Assembly: GCA_002067315.1 (NCBI GenBank)
Contig: MVRA01000002.1
Location: forward strand, 1-42,641
Direction of reading: 5' to 3'
From: Methanocella sp. PtaU1.Bin125
GTDB lineage: Archaea; Halobacteriota; Methanocellia; Methanocellales; Methanocellaceae
Length of the DNA stretch: 42,641 nt
Both the position numbers and the translations under genes were made by a program. Numbering within the stretch: position 1 is the stretch's first letter; every line of letters begins with the position of its first letter. The notes below the pieces were generated by a model, which searched no databases, was not told the DNA's origin, and was given only the letters and a program-made list of their open reading frames with translations. This document shows positions 30,661-41,822 of this stretch, piece by piece.

Positions 30661-31044
30661 ATGAACGCGGGTAAAACCGTTAAGCCGCCTGAGACCGGGC
30701 CTCATAAGGAATATTTCACCGATGGCAGGCTGGCGATCGAAGGCGAATACCGCGACGGCAAAAAGACCGGGACATGGACTTATTACCTCCGCAATGGCAG
30801 GGTGAAGGCCACAGGTAAATATGAGGACGACGAGATGACCCGCCCGTGGACGTGGTACCGGGAAAGCGGCGCGCTGTGGCAGACCGGTCAGTTCGCGAGC
30901 AACAGGCAGGCCGGCGAGTGGCGATGGTACCACCTGAACGGCAAGCTCATGGACGCCGGAATGTTCGCGGACGGGAAGAAGACCGGGGAATGGAAGATCT
31001 ACGACGAGAACGGGAACCTGGCCCGGGCGAAAAAGTACAAGTGA
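30661..31044 (+). CDS. MORN-repeat protein (YwqK-like)
   Basis: A 127-residue protein made of about four repeats of the form Y-x2-G-x-L-x3-G-x-Y-x2-G-x-K-x-G-x-W, as in HKEYFTDGRLAIEGEYRDGKKTGTW cut at residues 15-39, GRVKATGKYEDDEM, GALWQTGQFASNRQAGEWRW and GKLMDAGMFADGKKTGEWKI. These match the MORN/YwqK group, beta-hairpin repeats seen in bacterial antitoxin-like immunity proteins and in membrane-associated scaffolds. No signal peptide. Its 3' end has been duplicated 570 nt downstream (see 31609-31642). A lipoprotein gene follows after 21 nt. Confidence 0.75.
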   Translation: MNAGKTVKPPETGPHKEYFTDGRLAIEGEYRDGKKTGTWTYYLRNGRVKATGKYEDDEMTRPWTWYRESGALWQTGQFASNRQAGEWRWYHLNGKLMDAGMFADGKKTGEWKIYDENGNLARAKKYK

Positions 31045-31065
31045 TTTAAGGGTATAGTGATCACC

Positions 31066-31527
31066 GTGAAAAATCTAAAATTATCCCTGGCAGCCCCTGC
31101 AATCCTTGTGCTGCTCGTCCTGGCCGTTAGCGGCTGCATTATTAACAACGGGAAAGTGACCACTCCGGCGCCGACACCGACGCCCACGCCGACTCCTGCG
31201 TCTATGCCTACGGTTCCGCCCGCACCGACCGTCACGCCATTACCCGTGACCACTCCGGCGCCCACGCCGACACCTTCGCCTGAATGGACGATAGTCGGCC
31301 TCTGGGAAGGGAATGATCAATACATGAGTTACTCCATGGAGTTCTTCGCGGACGGGAAACTGATTTACGAAGAAAATCGCATCATGGCAAGCGGCGGCTG
31401 GATAAAAATCAACGATACGCACTATCTGGTCGGGGTCTCGACCTATGACACCGTGGTTACGCTCAACGACAGGAAGAATCAGTTCGTCTGGGGAGAAAAA
31501 CAGATTACTTTTACCAAAAGGACTTAA
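31066..31527 (+). CDS. Lipoprotein with Thr/Pro stalk, copy 1
   Basis: A lipoprotein of 153 residues from the GTG at 31066: MKNLKLSLAAPAILVLLVLA-type signal, lipobox VSGC, a long TPTPTP stalk, then a compact domain (IVGLWEG...YSMEFFADGKLIY...GGWIKI...YLVGVST...VTLNDR...FVWGEKQITFTKR). The domain repeats the strand pattern of lipocalin-like or DUF-type beta proteins. The start aligns with the ATG of the paralogue at 31664. The chosen GTG follows GTGATC; the earlier in-frame GTG at 31057 lies within that site. It follows the MORN gene. Confidence 0.75.
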   Translation: MKNLKLSLAAPAILVLLVLAVSGCIINNGKVTTPAPTPTPTPTPASMPTVPPAPTVTPLPVTTPAPTPTPSPEWTIVGLWEGNDQYMSYSMEFFADGKLIYEENRIMASGGWIKINDTHYLVGVSTYDTVVTLNDRKNQFVWGEKQITFTKRT

Positions 31528-31608
31528 AATTTCATTTTTTACATATGCCGAAAATGTAATTGTATAATTGATGTTCGTCATGAGACTGATTAATGTTCGT
31601 CATGAGAC

Positions 31609-31642
31609 GGGGAGCCTGGCCCGGGCGAAAAAGTACATGTAA
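31609..31642 (+). pseudogene. Duplicated 3' end of the MORN gene
   Basis: The sequence GGGGAGCCTGGCCCGGGCGA plus AAAAGTACATGTAA repeats the last codons of the MORN gene (AACCTGGCCCGGGCGAAAAA plus GTACAAGTGA at 31016-31044). It reads GSLARAKKYM-stop against GNLARAKKYK-stop. It precedes the second lipoprotein copy at the same distance as the original precedes the first, so a segment containing both was tandemly duplicated. Confidence 0.85.
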
Positions 31643-31663
31643 TATCATGGGATGGTGATCATT

Positions 31664-32080
31664 ATGAAACGCGGACCCTGCAGGCAATTATCATTGGTGG
31701 TTTCAGTATTCCTGTTGATACTCATCCTGGCTGTGAGCGGTTGTATATGTATAAACAGGAATGTTTCCACGCCCACACCCAATCCCGCCGCTACCCTGAT
31801 AACGACCGCGACTCCATCACCTGCACCTTCGGCAGATGCAGCTATCGTGGGCCTCTGGGAAGGGCATTACAAGTCTGTTGATTACTCCATGGAGTTCTAT
31901 GAGGACGGGAAAGTGCTCTACAACGAAGGCGGCAATATGGCAATCGGCCTCTGGGAAAAGATAGATGAAAAACAATATTCGGTCGAGATTTTGATCTATA
32001 ACTCAGTGATTACGCTCGATGATCGCTTGACTCAGTTCCAGTGGGGCGATAAAGGAATCATCTTCACAAAAACGAGGTAA
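31664..32080 (+). CDS. Lipoprotein with Thr/Pro stalk, copy 2
   Basis: A 138-residue paralogue of the preceding lipoprotein: signal with lipobox VSGC, shorter stalk, and the same domain (AIVGLWEGHYKSVDYSMEFY, GLWEKIDEKQYSVEILIYNS, FQWGDKGIIFTKTR). GGTGATC, a full match to the 16S tail, lies three nt before the ATG at 31664; an upstream ATG at 31652 is in frame but overlaps this site. It arose by tandem duplication, and sequence has since diverged, mostly in the stalk. Confidence 0.78.
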   Translation: MKRGPCRQLSLVVSVFLLILILAVSGCICINRNVSTPTPNPAATLITTATPSPAPSADAAIVGLWEGHYKSVDYSMEFYEDGKVLYNEGGNMAIGLWEKIDEKQYSVEILIYNSVITLDDRLTQFQWGDKGIIFTKTR

Positions 32081-34428: not shown

Positions 34429-34444
34429 ATAGCCCCGTCAGGAT
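34429..34444. repeat. Displaced att site (left boundary)
   Basis: ATAGCCCCGTCAGGAT, identical to 41587-41602 in the tRNA-Gln gene and in the same orientation; the flanking bases differ on both sides. Confidence 0.88.
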
Positions 34445-34587: not shown

Positions 34588-34857
34588 ATGGACTACGAGC
34601 AAGATGATACTAATTCATTGTTAAAGAATATTCTTTTTGAAATTAGGGAAGGTAATAGGCTTACAGAATTAACGCGACATGAATTAAATGCAATTAATCT
34701 ACGTGTAGACGTTTTAATACGAGTAACAACGCTTTCTAATAATTTTCCATCGGGAGATATTAATGAAATTAGTCAACTATTAAGAGATATCGACCGCCGA
34801 CAATTCCAGAATATGGATAAAACAAATGAAAAATATTATGAAGACAATATAGATTAA
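34588..34857 (+). CDS. 89-residue acidic helical protein
   Basis: A soluble, acidic protein, mostly one long helical stretch (NSLLKNILFEIREGNRLTEL, HELNAINLRVDVLIRVTTLS, NEISQLLRDIDRRQFQNMDK). Heptad-like leucine spacing suggests a coiled coil or dimer. No family recognised. It is AT-rich like the element and lies exactly between the two 80-bp direct repeats, transcribed toward the GHKL gene. It could be a cassette gene, a regulator or a partner of the ATPase/methyltransferase pair; nothing decides between these. Confidence 0.6.
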   Translation: MDYEQDDTNSLLKNILFEIREGNRLTELTRHELNAINLRVDVLIRVTTLSNNFPSGDINEISQLLRDIDRRQFQNMDKTNEKYYEDNID

Positions 34858-35007: not shown

Positions 35008-37278
35008 CTACTCTGTAGCTATTACCCCATATTTCTCTTCATATTTCATTTCTCTTTGAGCCACCATAGCAGCTACAGATGCTAATCTACATCTTTCTTC
35101 TGGTTCAATTACTTCTAATCTTGATAGAGCATCTTCATCTGCTTCTTTTCTATTATATTCTATTAACAACGAATGTACTGAAAGCCACACACCATATTTC
35201 ATTTCATATGACCTAGCTAGTGCAGTACTTTTCTTTTCATATTCCTTTAATACTTTAGCAAAACTCGGATATACTCTCGAATAGTATACAATTAATTTAT
35301 CAGGTTCTAACACAGAAGATGAAGCAACCGCATTAATATCATTAGGCCAATCCCTATCTGACCATAATGGATCATCCGGATTATTTATTGGTACTAACTT
35401 AATAGTTGGGATTGAAATTTTCTTATCATCAGGAGATGCCAACGGTTTTTCTATTATTTGGTATGCTATTTTGTCACTAATACTTTCTTTTCCTAATATT
35501 GAAACTTCTACCTTAATTTCTCCAGTTGAACCGATAGATGCGTTAGCTAAAGCATCTACTATAATACGCATTCTTCCTTCTCTTAATGGAGTCGTTCCCG
35601 ATAATTTTAATTTTTCGCCAATTATTGGATTAATACGACTCTTTTTGGGGTCTTCAGCGTCATGGTAATTTGATGGTGCATCGGTAATTACACGTAAATA
35701 TCTCCGCTGACCAGGATAAAACTCAATTGGAGATTTTCCTAATATTTTTATAAACGTTGGTGGGTCTTGAATTTGTATACTAGTTGCGGTCCTTTTTACA
35801 TGGCGTCCAGATGTCGGCTGTGTAGTACCTTCAGCTTCTTTACCATCCGGTTTACCACCAACCGTTTCATAAGTTTCATATCCATAAAATTTAAGGATTT
35901 TTGCAACTTCATTCTTAATAAGTTTTTCAGACTCAACATCGCTCTGTTTTAAAGTTAAGTTTTGAGCCTCTTCGTTTAATATTTTTAATTTATCATCAGA
36001 TGTAAGTGCTTTTAATAATTCTTCTTCTATTATTTTATATATGTCACCTTGTCTTATATCTTCTCTACTAGATACAAACAATTTTCTTTTTGCTACTGGT
36101 GACAGATTATCGCAATCCAAATGTATTATTAATCTATTTATTAAATATGGATATCCAGCTTTATTTTTTATTATCGTAGAAGACAATTCTGCATGGCTCT
36201 GACCATTATTGGTAAGAATAATCGGTTTTTTATTATCGACATACGCACGCGATGGATTTTTTTCAGAATATTCCAATACCCAATATTCTATACCAATTCT
36301 ACCATAATCTCCTAAATTAACATAAAAAATTGGCACATTATGTGATAGTTTTGGACCTCTTTCCCCGCTATCGTCTACTGCACCATTTAACGCATTTCTA
36401 GAACCTTTTATTACTCTACGGTAATCGTGTGGAATATCAATTAACATTATAGGCAGAATCGTATCAAACATAGCATACTGCAGCAGTCCATAAACACTGT
36501 TTGGACCCAATGCACCGATATACGATGATAAATCAAAACCGTAATGTCTAACCAATGTACCAGAAGAAAATTCTGTTAAAGGTAAATTAGCTTCTAACAT
36601 TTTATTATTAACTTTAATATAAACATATCTCCCATGTTTATATTCTTCAGCCGGTAAATCTTGATAAAATACTACTGAATATCCTATCGCTTTTGGCTCT
36701 TCTCCGCTGATATAAGCTCTTGATGCGATTAACGTAAATTGACATGATGCATAAGTGCTCGAACCTCCTTGACCATAGGCTCCAGCTACATACATTTTTT
36801 GCAATTTATTAGATTCACCTAAACTTAATATTGTGTTTTCCATTTTTTCTGGTAAAATACCAATTCCAAAATCTCTAACCGCTACAACTTTATTATTCTT
36901 ATCATCTCCTTCATCGATTGTAACATTGACCATTTTGGATAATTCTCGTCTTTTCGCAGCATCAAGTAAATACAGACCATTAGATGGAATATTTAACCAT
37001 GCTTGTGCAGCTTGCCTTGGTGTTTTACATTCCGGTACACCGTTATGCTTTTCATATTCTAGTTCAAGTACCGCATCGATAGCATTCGTTATTCGTTCAA
37101 CAATGCCTCTACCAGGGTCTTTCGTACTTTCAATTACCCCTCTATTATTTTCTCTTTTACCAACCGGTACCAATTCAAATGAATCCCCATATTCAATTTC
37201 CATATCCTCTAATATTTTTTTAACCTCAGAAGATTTTTTAGCATTAATTAATCGTATGAGAAATTCATTTTCCTTCAA
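35008..37278 (-). CDS. GHKL-type ATPase (Hsp90/MutL/MORC-like), putative defence or modification partner
   Basis: A 756-residue protein with a Bergerat-fold ATPase: N-box GIVERITNAIDAVLE (Glu61, Asn65, Asp68), G1 loop VRDFGIGI (Asp136-x-Gly138-x-Gly140) and G2 loop GAYGQGGSSTY (166-176). A region of mixed strands to about residue 420 should be the S5-like transducer (LIIHLDCDNLSPVAKRKLFVSSREDIRQ). Then come a low-complexity linker (480-500), an Ig-like beta domain (about 505-615) and a helical C-terminal part (about 655-750). I find no nuclease, helicase or HNH motif. It starts at TTG, 29 nt from a TATA box and with no ribosome binding site. It directly follows the methyltransferase gene, the arrangement reported for prokaryotic MORC-like ATPases linked to restriction-modification. 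Confidence 0.82.
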   Translation of the reverse strand: MKENEFLIRLINAKKSSEVKKILEDMEIEYGDSFELVPVGKRENNRGVIESTKDPGRGIVERITNAIDAVLELEYEKHNGVPECKTPRQAAQAWLNIPSNGLYLLDAAKRRELSKMVNVTIDEGDDKNNKVVAVRDFGIGILPEKMENTILSLGESNKLQKMYVAGAYGQGGSSTYASCQFTLIASRAYISGEEPKAIGYSVVFYQDLPAEEYKHGRYVYIKVNNKMLEANLPLTEFSSGTLVRHYGFDLSSYIGALGPNSVYGLLQYAMFDTILPIMLIDIPHDYRRVIKGSRNALNGAVDDSGERGPKLSHNVPIFYVNLGDYGRIGIEYWVLEYSEKNPSRAYVDNKKPIILTNNGQSHAELSSTIIKNKAGYPYLINRLIIHLDCDNLSPVAKRKLFVSSREDIRQGDIYKIIEEELLKALTSDDKLKILNEEAQNLTLKQSDVESEKLIKNEVAKILKFYGYETYETVGGKPDGKEAEGTTQPTSGRHVKRTATSIQIQDPPTFIKILGKSPIEFYPGQRRYLRVITDAPSNYHDAEDPKKSRINPIIGEKLKLSGTTPLREGRMRIIVDALANASIGSTGEIKVEVSILGKESISDKIAYQIIEKPLASPDDKKISIPTIKLVPINNPDDPLWSDRDWPNDINAVASSSVLEPDKLIVYYSRVYPSFAKVLKEYEKKSTALARSYEMKYGVWLSVHSLLIEYNRKEADEDALSRLEVIEPEERCRLASVAAMVAQREMKYEEKYGVIATE

Positions 37279-37306
37279 AACAACAACCCCGAACTCAATT
37301 TAATTT

Positions 37307-37315
37307 CTTATATAA
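37307..37315 (-). promoter_or_regulatory. TATA box of the GHKL ATPase gene
   Basis: TTATATAAG on the minus strand, 29-37 nt before the TTG start at 37278. The box abuts the methyltransferase stop, so the ATPase can be expressed separately from the methyltransferase. Confidence 0.55.
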
Positions 37316-38257
37316 CTAACTTATATTAAATCTACCTAGCGATCCTTTAATATATTCTTCTTGCGCCTCTATTGCAATCCAACGCCTTTTTAATTCTTCA
37401 CTTTTCGCTCCTACAACGTTACTGCCAGCAAATGGGTCAAGCACTAAATCGCCTTCAGATGTTAAAAATTTGATAAAAAATTCAGCCAATTCTGTTGACA
37501 TTCTGCAAGGATGTAAATTAATATTGTTAGCTTTACAATATTTTAAATAAGGGTCACAAGAGCTAGTATTTGCAGAAATGATTACATTAGGCGCTATTGC
37601 CCCTCGATTATCTTTCAAAAACGATTTATCATTAATTACATGTTCCGATGGCCTTTTGCCGGCATTATACTTTTTATTATATAATAGCTTCTTCATATCT
37701 TTACTATATTCTACCAATACATTTCTATTATCTGCCTTCGGATAATCGGTTGAACTTAACCACCATAACCGCGTAAACGCATCTTTTACACGAACTCTTT
37801 CAATTGTTACCCATTGAGCCGGAGTCGGTAGTCTTGCTGGATTATAACATATAAATTCTTGACATAATCTATAATTTCCAACTTTACAAAAATTTAATAA
37901 TGATTCTATTGGCAATGTTGACATTGTTGGACTTCCTTCATTCCATGCATTGCCTAATTCTATAACGATTGAACCATCTGGAGTTAAAAATTCTTTAAAA
38001 ATATTTGCATAGTTAGCCAACCAATTAACATATTTTTCCCCATCCAAATTCCCATATTTCTTTTTTCTCTTTAATGGAAATGGCGGAGACGTCAATATTA
38101 ATTGAATTTTACCATTATATTCAGATAGACCTTTTAAAACATTTTCTGATAATCCTAAATAACTACGACCCATCTCTGTAGTAAAATAAGGTTTTATATC
38201 AAAACCCACATTCTCAATTATAGGCTCAATAGAATGACTGCTAATATTCATCAACAT
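37316..38257 (-). CDS. DNA (cytosine-N4) methyltransferase, PvuII-like
   Basis: A 313-residue SAM-dependent DNA methyltransferase. The catalytic motif IV TSPPF (residues 56-60) is followed by PLKRKKKYGN, a pattern I associate with N4-cytosine enzymes such as M.PvuII. The SAM-binding motif I DPFAGSNVVG (274-283) comes after it, and a motif X-like HPCRMSTELAEFFIKFL (249-265) precedes motif I. This circular order (IV before I) is the beta-type arrangement. It should protect a short DNA site, yet no cognate endonuclease is recognisable next to it. The partner is the GHKL ATPase 37 nt downstream. A second ATG at 38251 fits the TATA region at 38262-38278 better for a leaderless start. Confidence 0.9.
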   Translation of the reverse strand: MLMNISSHSIEPIIENVGFDIKPYFTTEMGRSYLGLSENVLKGLSEYNGKIQLILTSPPFPLKRKKKYGNLDGEKYVNWLANYANIFKEFLTPDGSIVIELGNAWNEGSPTMSTLPIESLLNFCKVGNYRLCQEFICYNPARLPTPAQWVTIERVRVKDAFTRLWWLSSTDYPKADNRNVLVEYSKDMKKLLYNKKYNAGKRPSEHVINDKSFLKDNRGAIAPNVIISANTSSCDPYLKYCKANNINLHPCRMSTELAEFFIKFLTSEGDLVLDPFAGSNVVGAKSEELKRRWIAIEAQEEYIKGSLGRFNIS

Positions 38258-38417: not shown

Positions 38418-39278
38418 CTATGTAATCTTATAATATACTAAATTTGATTTATTTCGCTTTTTTCTATGACCTCTCTCCTTTCTTATAGTAAAAGAATCAG
38501 TAAGACCAGACCTGTTATGTTTCATACGCTTTTTTCGAATACGAGTATGTAAATTTTTCTTGTTATTTCCAATTAGCCCGGTATCCTCTTTCCAAGCCTT
38601 ACGCTTCTTAATAAGCTCCAGCAACTCGGTTTTTACTCTTCTTATCATCATGGAGCTGTCTGGTTTATAATTAAAGACATACTTGCCTTCATTTTCAACA
38701 TTGATAATATGCCATTTAGGCCAACTCTCCCTTAGGCCCTTTGACATACCATAACGTCTTTCACCCTTTCTGAATGGTGCTTCTGCGAGATTTTTTGCCA
38801 TGTATTTTGACATATATGCAGCTGAAAACCGAACTTGGGCCTGGGCGATCCATACGATAAACGAAGTTCCCTTAGTGGCCAAATTCCAATAATACCGAAT
38901 TACGTTCCATGGTACAAACGCCGTAATTAGGGCATGCAGATGCAGTTTTTCATTCTCTTGAAACTCTTTAACCCATAAATATTCAAAACGATAACCAGCC
39001 TTTTTAAGGGCCATTACAAATCGATGCCAATATACGCCTAAGTCACTATTCCTAGCATTCTGTCCCAGCGTCAACGTGAGGCCTCTAAACCTATAACCCT
39101 TAGACATCAACGCATTAGTGGCACATTTAATCGAAAACAGGAATTTCCGCTTCTTCTTAGGTCCACATACCGGACATGTCCAGCTCTTACATGGTGCTGG
39201 ATACTTGTTAATCTGCTCTCTATCACACCGCATGGTAAAATAGCCCACTGGGGTAGGGCACACGTTTTTCTCTGTCAT
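38418..39278 (-). CDS. HUH rolling-circle replication initiator (Rep)
   Basis: A 286-residue Rep protein. Cys residues CKSWTCPVCGPKK (30-42) form an N-terminal zinc knuckle. RFRGLTLTLG (64-72) is motif 1, EKLHLHALITA (110-120) is motif 2 with the metal-binding His113/His115, and AAYMSKYMAKN (153-163) is motif 3 with Tyr155 and Tyr159 around Lys158. This is the HUH endonuclease plan that nicks the double-strand origin and joins to its 5' end. The C-terminal 80 residues are highly basic. GGAG lies 12 nt before the ATG. It implies that the element replicates, or once did, as a circular plasmid or virus. Confidence 0.88.
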   Translation of the reverse strand: MTEKNVCPTPVGYFTMRCDREQINKYPAPCKSWTCPVCGPKKKRKFLFSIKCATNALMSKGYRFRGLTLTLGQNARNSDLGVYWHRFVMALKKAGYRFEYLWVKEFQENEKLHLHALITAFVPWNVIRYYWNLATKGTSFIVWIAQAQVRFSAAYMSKYMAKNLAEAPFRKGERRYGMSKGLRESWPKWHIINVENEGKYVFNYKPDSSMMIRRVKTELLELIKKRKAWKEDTGLIGNNKKNLHTRIRKKRMKHNRSGLTDSFTIRKERGHRKKRNKSNLVYYKIT

Positions 39279-39834: not shown

Positions 39835-40149
39835 TTATATTTCTTGTGATGCTTGTTCTGGGATTTCCAAAACTGTTTCTTCTTTCGATTCCTGCACAAC
39901 GGTATCTAATGGTTCCTGCACAACGGTATCCTGTAATACTGTCTGACGGGATTCTGTTTTAATATATATGACGTTCTTTCCGTCTATGTTTTTAATATCA
40001 AACCATACCTTCTGTTTATTAACAAGTCCTAAACTACGGACTATATCAATTGGTATATTGACAGAAAGGCCTTTGCTGTTCGGGTTGGTGCTATACAGTC
40101 TTCGAGTAAATGCCGCTTGTACGGCTTCACCATGCGTTTTTAATTGCAT
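39835..40149 (-). CDS. AbrB/SpoVT-like transcription regulator
   Basis: A 104-residue protein with the swapped-hairpin AbrB-type pattern NSKGLSVNIPIDIVRSLGLV then NKQKVWFDI (residues 24-52). A polar tail follows, carrying two copies of an eight-residue unit (QEPLDTVV / QDTVVQEP-like); the DNA repeat TTCCTGCACAACGGTATC occurs at 39889-39906 and 39913-39930. AbrB-like proteins bind DNA as dimers or tetramers and often regulate plasmid functions or act as antitoxins. The TAATACGGTTAG element lies directly before its start, so it is the obvious candidate for binding that element and controlling itself. Confidence 0.8.
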   Translation of the reverse strand: MQLKTHGEAVQAAFTRRLYSTNPNSKGLSVNIPIDIVRSLGLVNKQKVWFDIKNIDGKNVIYIKTESRQTVLQDTVVQEPLDTVVQESKEETVLEIPEQASQEI

Positions 40150-40245: not shown

Positions 40246-41445
40246 TTAGGACATCATTTTCAACCGTTCTAAAATTTTTGGATTCTTGAACAGTTTTAAG
40301 AACTCGCTTTCTGCTTCACTAATCTCTTCACGTAGCGACTTAACGCCTTCTTTTATCGACCGCGCACACCTGGGGCAATACACGTTTGTAGGCTCATTCA
40401 TATGGCCACAGACACACTTTATCAGATTAATTGATGCTTCTGGCTTTACTGCCTGTTTATCGAGTCCTGCATGTTTTAAAATGGCCTTCTCAACGTCAGT
40501 ATCGGCAAGCTTCAGGTAGAAATCTAACATTTTTGTCGAAGGCTTCTGCCACATCATCTTTTTAATAACGCTCTCCTGGTAGCCCTCGCGTATCATGTTC
40601 GTTATACGAGAAGTCCTGAAAAGCTTAGGAGTCACGCGTTTTTCAATACCTGTTGCAGCAATCAAGTTATCCATTAAACGTGTTACTGCCCTGTAGGTTA
40701 TCGGCTCGTCACGCTCCAGCAGCTTAAAAACAAAGTCTTCACCATTGACATTGCCTGAATCGTTACGGTAATTAAGCAAGTACGGTATAGACGTTACAAC
40801 ATATACCACTCGCTCCCCACCTACCTTCTGGTCCTCTAATCGAACCCGGCAATCAACATCTAAAAAGGTCAGGTCGTTCCACGTAAGCCGAGCGACCTCG
40901 CCAACTCTCGCACCCGTCTCATACAACGTCATGATAAACGCTCTGTCACGTGAATTTCGGCATGCGCTTACCAATCGGTTAATATCGTCATGGGTTAAGA
41001 TGTCTTTTGGCTTTATGCTATCGTATTTTTCTTCTGGCGGCTCTATCTCTTTCAGCTCGTCAGCATCAATAGGCTCAATTATCTTTTTGCGGATTAAATA
41101 CCGAGTATACGTTTTAATAGTCTTAACCATTGACCGCTTGGTGCTCTGGCTATACTCTCCACCATACGAGTTTTTGCCGACCTGAAAAGCCCGTAGCCCT
41201 TCTAAAAGGTCACCTAACGTCATCTGCTCAAACGGTACTTTAATAAAACGCCGCCACTGTACAAGCATTGTAGCAATACGGGCCGCCCTTCTCTCGAAAA
41301 TCTTGCCTTTAGCCAGCTTCTCAACAACGTAATTTCTAATAAGCCGCCCATCGCTCTCCGTTATTTTACCACGTTCTAAGGCCCTTGCTATAATGACCTC
41401 GTACGTGTACCTATCGTTATAGGCTAAGAAATTTGCATTGTCCAT
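40246..41445 (-). CDS. Tyrosine recombinase (integrase) with C-terminal zinc ribbon
   Basis: A 399-residue integrase. An N-terminal SAM-like arm/core-binding domain (about 20-125) precedes the catalytic domain. Arg180 is in LYETGARVGEVARLTW, a lysine near 207 lies in the beta hairpin, and KLFR (274-277) stands where HxxR is usual. MMWQKPSTKMLDFYL follows, with Trp299 and the nucleophile Tyr310. A zinc ribbon CVCGH...YCPRC (344-360) follows, then a helical end, a layout common in integrases of archaeal plasmids and viruses. The gene starts 142 nt from the tRNA target and carries GGTGG before its ATG. It should integrate the element at the tRNA-Gln 3' end. Confidence 0.92.
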   Translation of the reverse strand: MDNANFLAYNDRYTYEVIIARALERGKITESDGRLIRNYVVEKLAKGKIFERRAARIATMLVQWRRFIKVPFEQMTLGDLLEGLRAFQVGKNSYGGEYSQSTKRSMVKTIKTYTRYLIRKKIIEPIDADELKEIEPPEEKYDSIKPKDILTHDDINRLVSACRNSRDRAFIMTLYETGARVGEVARLTWNDLTFLDVDCRVRLEDQKVGGERVVYVVTSIPYLLNYRNDSGNVNGEDFVFKLLERDEPITYRAVTRLMDNLIAATGIEKRVTPKLFRTSRITNMIREGYQESVIKKMMWQKPSTKMLDFYLKLADTDVEKAILKHAGLDKQAVKPEASINLIKCVCGHMNEPTNVYCPRCARSIKEGVKSLREEISEAESEFLKLFKNPKILERLKMMS

Positions 41446-41586: not shown

Positions 41587-41602
41587 ATAGCCCCGTCAGG
41601 AT
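41587..41602. repeat. att site within tRNA-Gln (right boundary)
   Basis: ATAGCCCCGTCAGGAT covers the last T-stem base pairs, the 3' acceptor strand and the discriminator base of the tRNA. It is identical to 34429-34444. Confidence 0.88.
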
Positions 41603-41660
41603 TCGAACCTGAGTCAAAGGATCCAGAGTCCCCTATGATTGACCGCTACACCACGGGGCT
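41588..41660 (-). tRNA. tRNA-Gln(CTG)
   Basis: Folds by eye: acceptor AGCCCCG/CGGGGCT, T-arm TCAGG-TTCGAAT-CCTGA, anticodon stem GGGGA/TCCTT around loop CTCTGGA with anticodon CTG (Gln), discriminator A. CCA is not encoded. A TATA-like TGTTATATGG at 41688-41697 lies 28-37 nt upstream. The gene is intact despite hosting the integration because the element supplies the 3' end. Confidence 0.93.
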
Positions 41661-41822
41661 ATTCAGCCATCTTACTATATCATTCTGCCATATAACATTT
41701 TCGCTCACGCATTCCCACTAGCCGTACCGTCAGAAACGGTATAACCAGCTCCGGGCCCGAGCATATACTCTTCAATCCCCTTCATCTTAATAAATCCTGC
41801 TTACAGAAAATGCGGTAAAACT

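Follow-up and report, generated by a model that had tools for sequence, protein, structure and literature searches.

A DNA methyltransferase paired with a GHKL ATPase of no recognised nuclease signature on an integrated Methanocella plasmid: a candidate modification-dependent DNA-exclusion module

What might a DNA methyltransferase do when its neighbour is an ATPase, in the place where a restriction endonuclease would be expected? The question is raised by two genes of Methanocella sp. PtaU1.Bin125 (GCA_002067315.1), found on contig MVRA01000002.1 within positions 1-42,641 of the forward strand, a 42,641-nucleotide stretch of DNA that was analysed as a whole and is here called the window. A role in restriction-modification has been predicted since 2008 for GHKL machines of the gyrase/MORC kind, mostly alongside helicases and nucleases (PMC2292703), and a first-pass annotation of the window had proposed that such an ATPase here senses or clamps DNA that its partner has left unmarked. 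Both open reading frames proved to be intact on the minus strand at the annotated positions (Table 1), with the ATPase gene lying 37 bp downstream of the methyltransferase stop codon in the same direction. A scan for promoters and terminators gave signal at chance level.

The methyltransferase is, by its full-length similarity and motif order, a member of the M.PvuII-type beta-class N4-cytosine enzymes, as had been annotated. Its closest solved structure is that of M.PvuII (1boo, residues 18-310 aligned), it shares 40% identity with this pPvu1 enzyme, and its SPP motif at residue 57 stands ahead of DPFAGS at 274, which is the beta order. The site CAGCTG occurs 9 times in the window versus 7.1 expected, and the idea that it is avoided there was dropped, this count being near expectation. 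No R.PvuII homologue was found among the window ORFs with phmmer, and compared with the PvuII type II restriction-modification system the ATPase occupies the missing partner's place. A PF09225 search of the organism's own genome was likewise empty, but the control queries were equally silent, so that this weak search does not prove R.PvuII to be absent from the genome; the annotated lack of an endonuclease thus stands for the element that carries the pair and less firmly for the genome. On the Methanothrix plasmid pH6Ac, a 203-aa protein with a PD-(D/E)xK-like motif (L039, 10161-10772) is encoded near an M.PvuII-type methyltransferase that matches the window enzyme at 49%.

The pair resides in a rolling-circle-type plasmid integrated at tRNA-Gln, in agreement with the first-pass annotation. 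The element measures 7,158 bp between its 16-nt repeats, has a GC content of 0.356 versus 0.566 outside, and encodes its own integrase and replication initiator; two small ORFs aside, the pair is its sole non-mobility cargo. A nuclease was recognised nowhere in the element, and no helicase-like ORF was present among the element ORFs scanned. Outside the element, the window contains at 31057-32080 a tandem pair of related short proteins, lipoprotein-like by eye, with repeat pairs at 31006/31604 and 31295/31944.

Table 1. Positions in the window of the gene pair, the predicted ATPase domains and the features of the integrated element.
Feature	Position	Strand	Attributes
N4-cytosine DNA methyltransferase, M.PvuII type	37316..38257	-	313 aa; TSPPF then DPFAGS; PF01555 E 1.8e-28; 1boo E 8.1e-73
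GHKL ATPase	35008..37278	-	756 aa; TTG start; single copy in genome
GHKL (Bergerat) domain, ~residues 1-205	36664..37278	-	E61/N65/D68, D136xGxG140, G166..GGSS; borders approximate
Transducer (S5-like) region, ~residues 206-460	35899..36663	-	NGQxH (358-362) and F401xxSR405 invariant or near-invariant
Predicted Ig-like beta-sandwich, ~residues 505-610	35449..35766	-	homology to strands 548-657 of L044 model
C-terminal domain, ~residues 615-756	35011..35436	-	P624, W639, hNxDxxxL (window divergent); long helices; low-confidence in models
89-aa ORF of element	34588..34857	+	ORF; family match not significant
Attachment repeat, displaced copy (ATAGCCCCGTCAGGAT)	34429..34444	.	16-nt exact repeat
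Attachment repeat, 3' end of tRNA-Gln	41587..41602	.	second copy of 16-nt exact repeat
tRNA-Gln (ctg), integration target	41587..41661	-	
Tyrosine integrase of element	40246..41445	-	PF00589 E 9.6e-21
Rolling-circle replication initiator of element	38418..39278	-	PF23343 REP_ORF2-G2P E 1.2e-13; phrog_3419
104-aa protein, AbrB-like by eye, probably element regulator	39835..40149	-	ORF; family match not significant

To place the second gene, homologues of the ATPase were drawn from plasmids, archaeal genomes and viral contigs; bacterial coverage amounts to the plasmids and viral contigs, as a scan of genome contigs yielded one locus. No relative turned up when the viral contigs were scanned with a single protein, nor when A5 and A3 served as queries, and two queries of a phage collection gave no match. 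The complete Bergerat motifs claimed for the window protein are present, namely the N-box E61xxxN65xxDA, D136FGIG140 and the glycine-rich lid G166AYGQGGSS, and they are invariant or almost so in 29 homologues; the invariant columns of the 29-sequence alignment include E61, N65, D68, D136, G138, G140, K158, G166, G171, Q360 and R405. No PADLOC model matches the window ATPase, and since Pfam HATPase_c_3 scores below threshold on it (22.6 versus 25 bits), it is identified by way of the family alignment and fold. The window protein's own model, built from a five-sequence alignment, was poor (mean pLDDT 38.7) and was not used. A model of the homologue L044 reached a mean pLDDT of 66: residues 1-490 mostly score >70 apart from less certain loops, the beta-sandwich ~80, and the C-terminus low. 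Its fold matches Topo VI-B, MutL and the ATPase-transducer fragment of GyrB, the last (43 kDa) over ~390 columns. Against solved structures the family profile found MORC4 best (E 0.014) and Topo VI-B, both weakly. By its motifs and a gyrase/MutL-like fold taken from L044, the window ATPase is a member of the GHKL superfamily.

The remainder of the protein had been annotated as Ig-like and helical, a description supported by the L044 model, in which a beta-sandwich (strands 548-657) resembles Ig-like viral proteins. Past residue 500 the family's conservation is structural (P507, G568, P624, W639, hNxD), with the NxD motif lost at residues 667-669 of the window sequence. No conserved D/E/K nuclease pattern was found in this part of the 29-sequence alignment, and no nuclease is among the listed profile or fold matches; the candidate reading of the ATPase as a fused restriction enzyme was therefore unsupported. 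The family looks coherent, with little or no library coverage, and would consist of a GHKL domain, a gyrase/MutL-like transducer, an Ig-like sandwich and a helical C-terminus, all lacking a nuclease signature.

Its closest described counterparts are the paraMORC/MORC GHKL ATPases of restriction-modification systems, whose operons mostly include a helicase and an endonuclease (Iyer et al. 2008, PMC2292703). Both groups have a GHKL plus S5-like domain, lateral mobility and adjoining DNA methylases. However, the MORC S5 motif GhXhhpXXRhl occurs in 0/29 family sequences, that of the window included, the RE-fold or PD-(D/E)xK nuclease domain of paraMORC3 was not found in the family, and the C-terminal HxH of paraMORC5 occurs past residue 480 in 1/29. 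An ExxxH of the paraMORC2 type appears anywhere in 180-480 in 14 of the 29, at no conserved column. paraMORC1 is marked by a distinct C-terminal extension beyond S5, and although the family looks undescribed in libraries and open-licence literature, it may be paraMORC1. VcSduA, a GHKL-Shedu protein with a role in phage defence (PMC12137116), is alike in its GHKL ATPase and clamp-like middle domain but has a C-terminal PD-(D/E)xK nuclease, of which none was found in the window ATPase family. HEF_HK proteins (PMC8011034) likewise include HATPase_c_3-type GHKL genes adjoining methylases (C5), but by their description carry a C-terminal HEF_HK domain of their own. A second GHKL-type gene, a sensor histidine kinase by annotation and with HATPase_c_3 in L017, lies near the family ATPase in L003 (10666-13032), L004 (3369-5729) and L017 (6967-9090), and these are possibly of the HEF_HK type.

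Which genes accompany this ATPase? A DNA-modification gene or a gene of a known modification system lies within the stretch read at 31 of 41 family loci. Pfam confirms an amino-methyltransferase (PF01555) in the window, L015, L044, L046, L078, L080, L082, L083, L084, L086 and L087; one is recognised by motif in L036, an Eco57I-type methyltransferase in L018, and C5 methyltransferases in L048 and L081, in L049 by annotation and in L095 by motif. Known systems are represented by DrmA and DrmB in L048 (PADLOC; the only locus where both were identified), PbeC/PbeD near the ATPase in L088 and similarly in L089, PbeA/PbeC in L019, DndB in L006 and a DpdB-like protein in L034. L002-L004 have PAPS reductase or DUF4007/aminotransferase genes by annotation, which we read as Ssp/Dnd, L098 has DGQHR and Dam-like genes by motif, and L049, L075, L076, L077, L079 and L085 were scored DISARM-like on annotation or shared layout only. 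A probable type IIG gene in L035 was not family-tested and was left out of the count. Of the other loci, L037 and L045 end at a contig edge, L016, L033 and L090 carry broken ATPases, and L005, L017, L047 and L094 have an intact ATPase with no modification gene in the stretch read. The expected pairing with a methyltransferase is thus upheld as a link to DNA modification at large; the partner is not specifically PvuII-like, and DISARM, Pbe, Ssp and Dnd genes also take its place. A search of the open-licence literature found no link of GHKL proteins with DISARM or Ssp.

Several of these loci merit description in their own right. Haloarchaeal L048 (7242-18480) encodes a C5 methyltransferase, the GHKL ATPase, DrmA and DrmB, a DISARM-like set with an extra component. 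In L094 (6771-9191) an intact family ATPase lies on a 597-kb viral contig, adjoined by structural-looking genes and no methyltransferase. A 340-400-aa protein adjoins the ATPase in L017, L035, L036, L045, L083 and L086, and is absent from the window; the three members scanned (L017, L083, L086) had no Pfam match, and it reads like a DNA-binding partner with ribbon-helix-helix and winged-helix parts.

An SPP[FY] motif is typical of N4-cytosine enzymes, and it is present in 10 of the 11 Pfam-confirmed PF01555 partners, the exception being L015 with DPPY. These partners fall into several kinds: PvuII-type (window, L080, L086), L078/L082/L087, L083/L084, and L044/L046. Two-gene methyltransferase-ATPase pairs recur in L078 (12 bp apart), L082 (42 bp), L044 (4 bp, convergent), L046 (54 bp) and L015 (20 bp, convergent), and a restriction nuclease was recognised beside none of the pairs in L078, L082, L044 and L046. 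Statistically, a PF01555 gene lies within 1.5 kb of the ATPase in 9 of 18 ATPase-bearing genomes versus about 0.7% expected per genome (p 7e-16, or 5e-7 and 1.5e-4 with the background raised ten- and twenty-fold for defence islands), the 18 genomes being not fully independent and the methyltransferase gene counts hand-merged; this bears out the predicted co-occurrence. The reverse link is weak. Among 394 haloarchaeal genomes the L086-type methyltransferase occurs in 19, of which only G553 and G613 also have the ATPase, so that this enzyme appears to be a promiscuous module and the notion that it always travels with the ATPase was rejected.

The origin of the two-gene form is illuminated by the nearest relatives of each gene. 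Of the methyltransferases found, those of G069 (69%) and G268 (68%) are closest to the window enzyme, and G036 supplies a third relative (55%); immediately after each come PbeA, PbeC and a gene at the place of PbeD (L108 for G069, L109 for G268 and L110 for G036). PADLOC confirms PbeA and PbeC in G069, but not the small gene; the PbeC of G268 is split, and the third gene there sits at the edge of the stretch read. These Pbe systems, each headed by an M.PvuII-type methyltransferase, appear to use N4-cytosine methylation in place of phosphorothioate. The ATPase was not found in the three neighbourhoods. In G244, whose contig begins inside a PbeA 92% identical to that of G069, a broken ATPase directly follows the small gene (PbeD); across residues 678-745 this remnant shares 41% identity with the window ATPase, more than any intact homologue over its (longer) aligned stretch. 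In the ATPase tree the window copy clusters with L086, L088, L089, L015, L033 and L006 (99/99 for the set), its exact place being unsure because its own branch is long (1.76 changes per column). From these pieces we infer an ancestral methyltransferase-PbeA-PbeC-PbeD-ATPase operon, assembled from several contigs and whole on none. As the closest relatives of both window genes bracket PbeA-PbeC-PbeD, the pair resembles the outermost genes of a larger system minus its core. PbeA, PbeC and PbeD are all absent from the window, and in the organism's own genome PbeC was not found and the PbeA search gave a generic helicase match only. The unusual two-gene form noted in the first-pass annotation is real, is probably derived and has counterparts elsewhere.

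The reading that we favour, at about an even chance of being right, is that the two genes form a mobile, pared-down module for modification-dependent DNA exclusion, with the GHKL clamp as its effector or sensor. The methyltransferase would place N4-methylcytosine at a PvuII-like site and so mark self DNA, a step well supported by homology. The ATPase, as supported by family and fold, would dimerise and work as a GHKL-transducer machine resembling the N-gate of gyrase, Topo VI and MutL, its Ig-like and helical C-terminal part replacing a nuclease. ATP-driven closure might then capture or scan DNA, and unmodified DNA might be held or blocked uncut, or a host factor recruited. In evolutionary terms, the data support, short of proof, an ATPase family that serves many modification-based systems as a portable part, the window copy probably having once ended the operon whose core is now absent.

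This exclusion reading draws support from the arrangement of the pair as the chief cargo of a self-contained integrated plasmid, from GHKL catalytic motifs that are invariant across a family showing no nuclease signature or fold, from the PF01555 adjacency and varied modification partners across the tree, and from the two-gene pairs elsewhere. It also has a precedent: PbeABCD, as described in PMC6459918, shuts out virus in a modification-dependent way and without DNA cleavage, and of the 320 solitary pbeAC loci counted there, 155 have methyltransferases nearby. The likeness extends to the PbeA-PbeC-PbeD operons that contain relatives of both window genes; the difference is that PbeA/C/D are missing from the window, and that the passages of PMC6459918 consulted mention no GHKL component. 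Counting against it are the long branch and altered NxD of the window ATPase, and the four intact family ATPases with no modification gene nearby. A stronger version, which we hold only tentatively, is that the pair is a complete two-gene restriction-modification analogue without a nuclease, in which a gyrase/MORC-like clamp topologically captures and silences DNA that the methyltransferase has not marked, the family then being a common, modification-agnostic component of type II-like, DISARM, Pbe, Ssp and Dnd systems.

The missing Pbe genes mean that the pair may instead be a remnant from which PbeA-PbeC-PbeD were lost internally, leaving a methyltransferase that alone is active, shielding the plasmid from host restriction, and an ATPase that is a passenger being lost, as in G244. 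The order, methyltransferase first and ATPase last, is that expected after loss of the core, and several family ATPases are broken, those in G439, G185 and G566 having no modification gene nearby; the flanking relatives, the Pbe core not found in the genome and the divergent NxD also fit. Against this, the 756-codon frame is free of stops and keeps every family-invariant GHKL residue, and two-gene pairs exist in separate lineages, for which reasons we favour function and consider a remnant rather unlikely. Less probable again is an ordinary restriction-modification system in which the ATPase recruits a nuclease encoded elsewhere in the genome by MutL-MutH/Vsr logic: such a model has been published for MORC/paraMORC (PMC2292703) and nucleases do lie near some family loci (Vsr-like in L095, Mrr_cat in L080), but no nuclease partner is conserved across the loci, the element would have to rely on an unlinked host gene, and the four pairs mentioned above have no recognised restriction nuclease adjoining. 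The least probable proposal, that the ATPase is a topology or chaperone factor that loads or regulates the methyltransferase in gene regulation or plasmid maintenance and not in defence, suits its association with many modification enzymes as well as exclusion does, but no regulatory context was seen, and the DISARM- and Pbe-type loci where family ATPases occur are defence systems.

If the exclusion reading holds, the pair may discriminate foreign from self DNA without a cutter, and so minimal a combination of methyltransferase and GHKL protein would allow the role of the ATPase to be examined in isolation. That the family is found next to methyltransferases of several kinds and next to DISARM, Pbe, Ssp and Dnd genes suggests a single effector or sensor shared by systems that have hitherto been treated separately. 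Eukaryotic MORC proteins act on chromatin with DNA methylation, and the wider ATPase family suggests a prokaryotic parallel to them.
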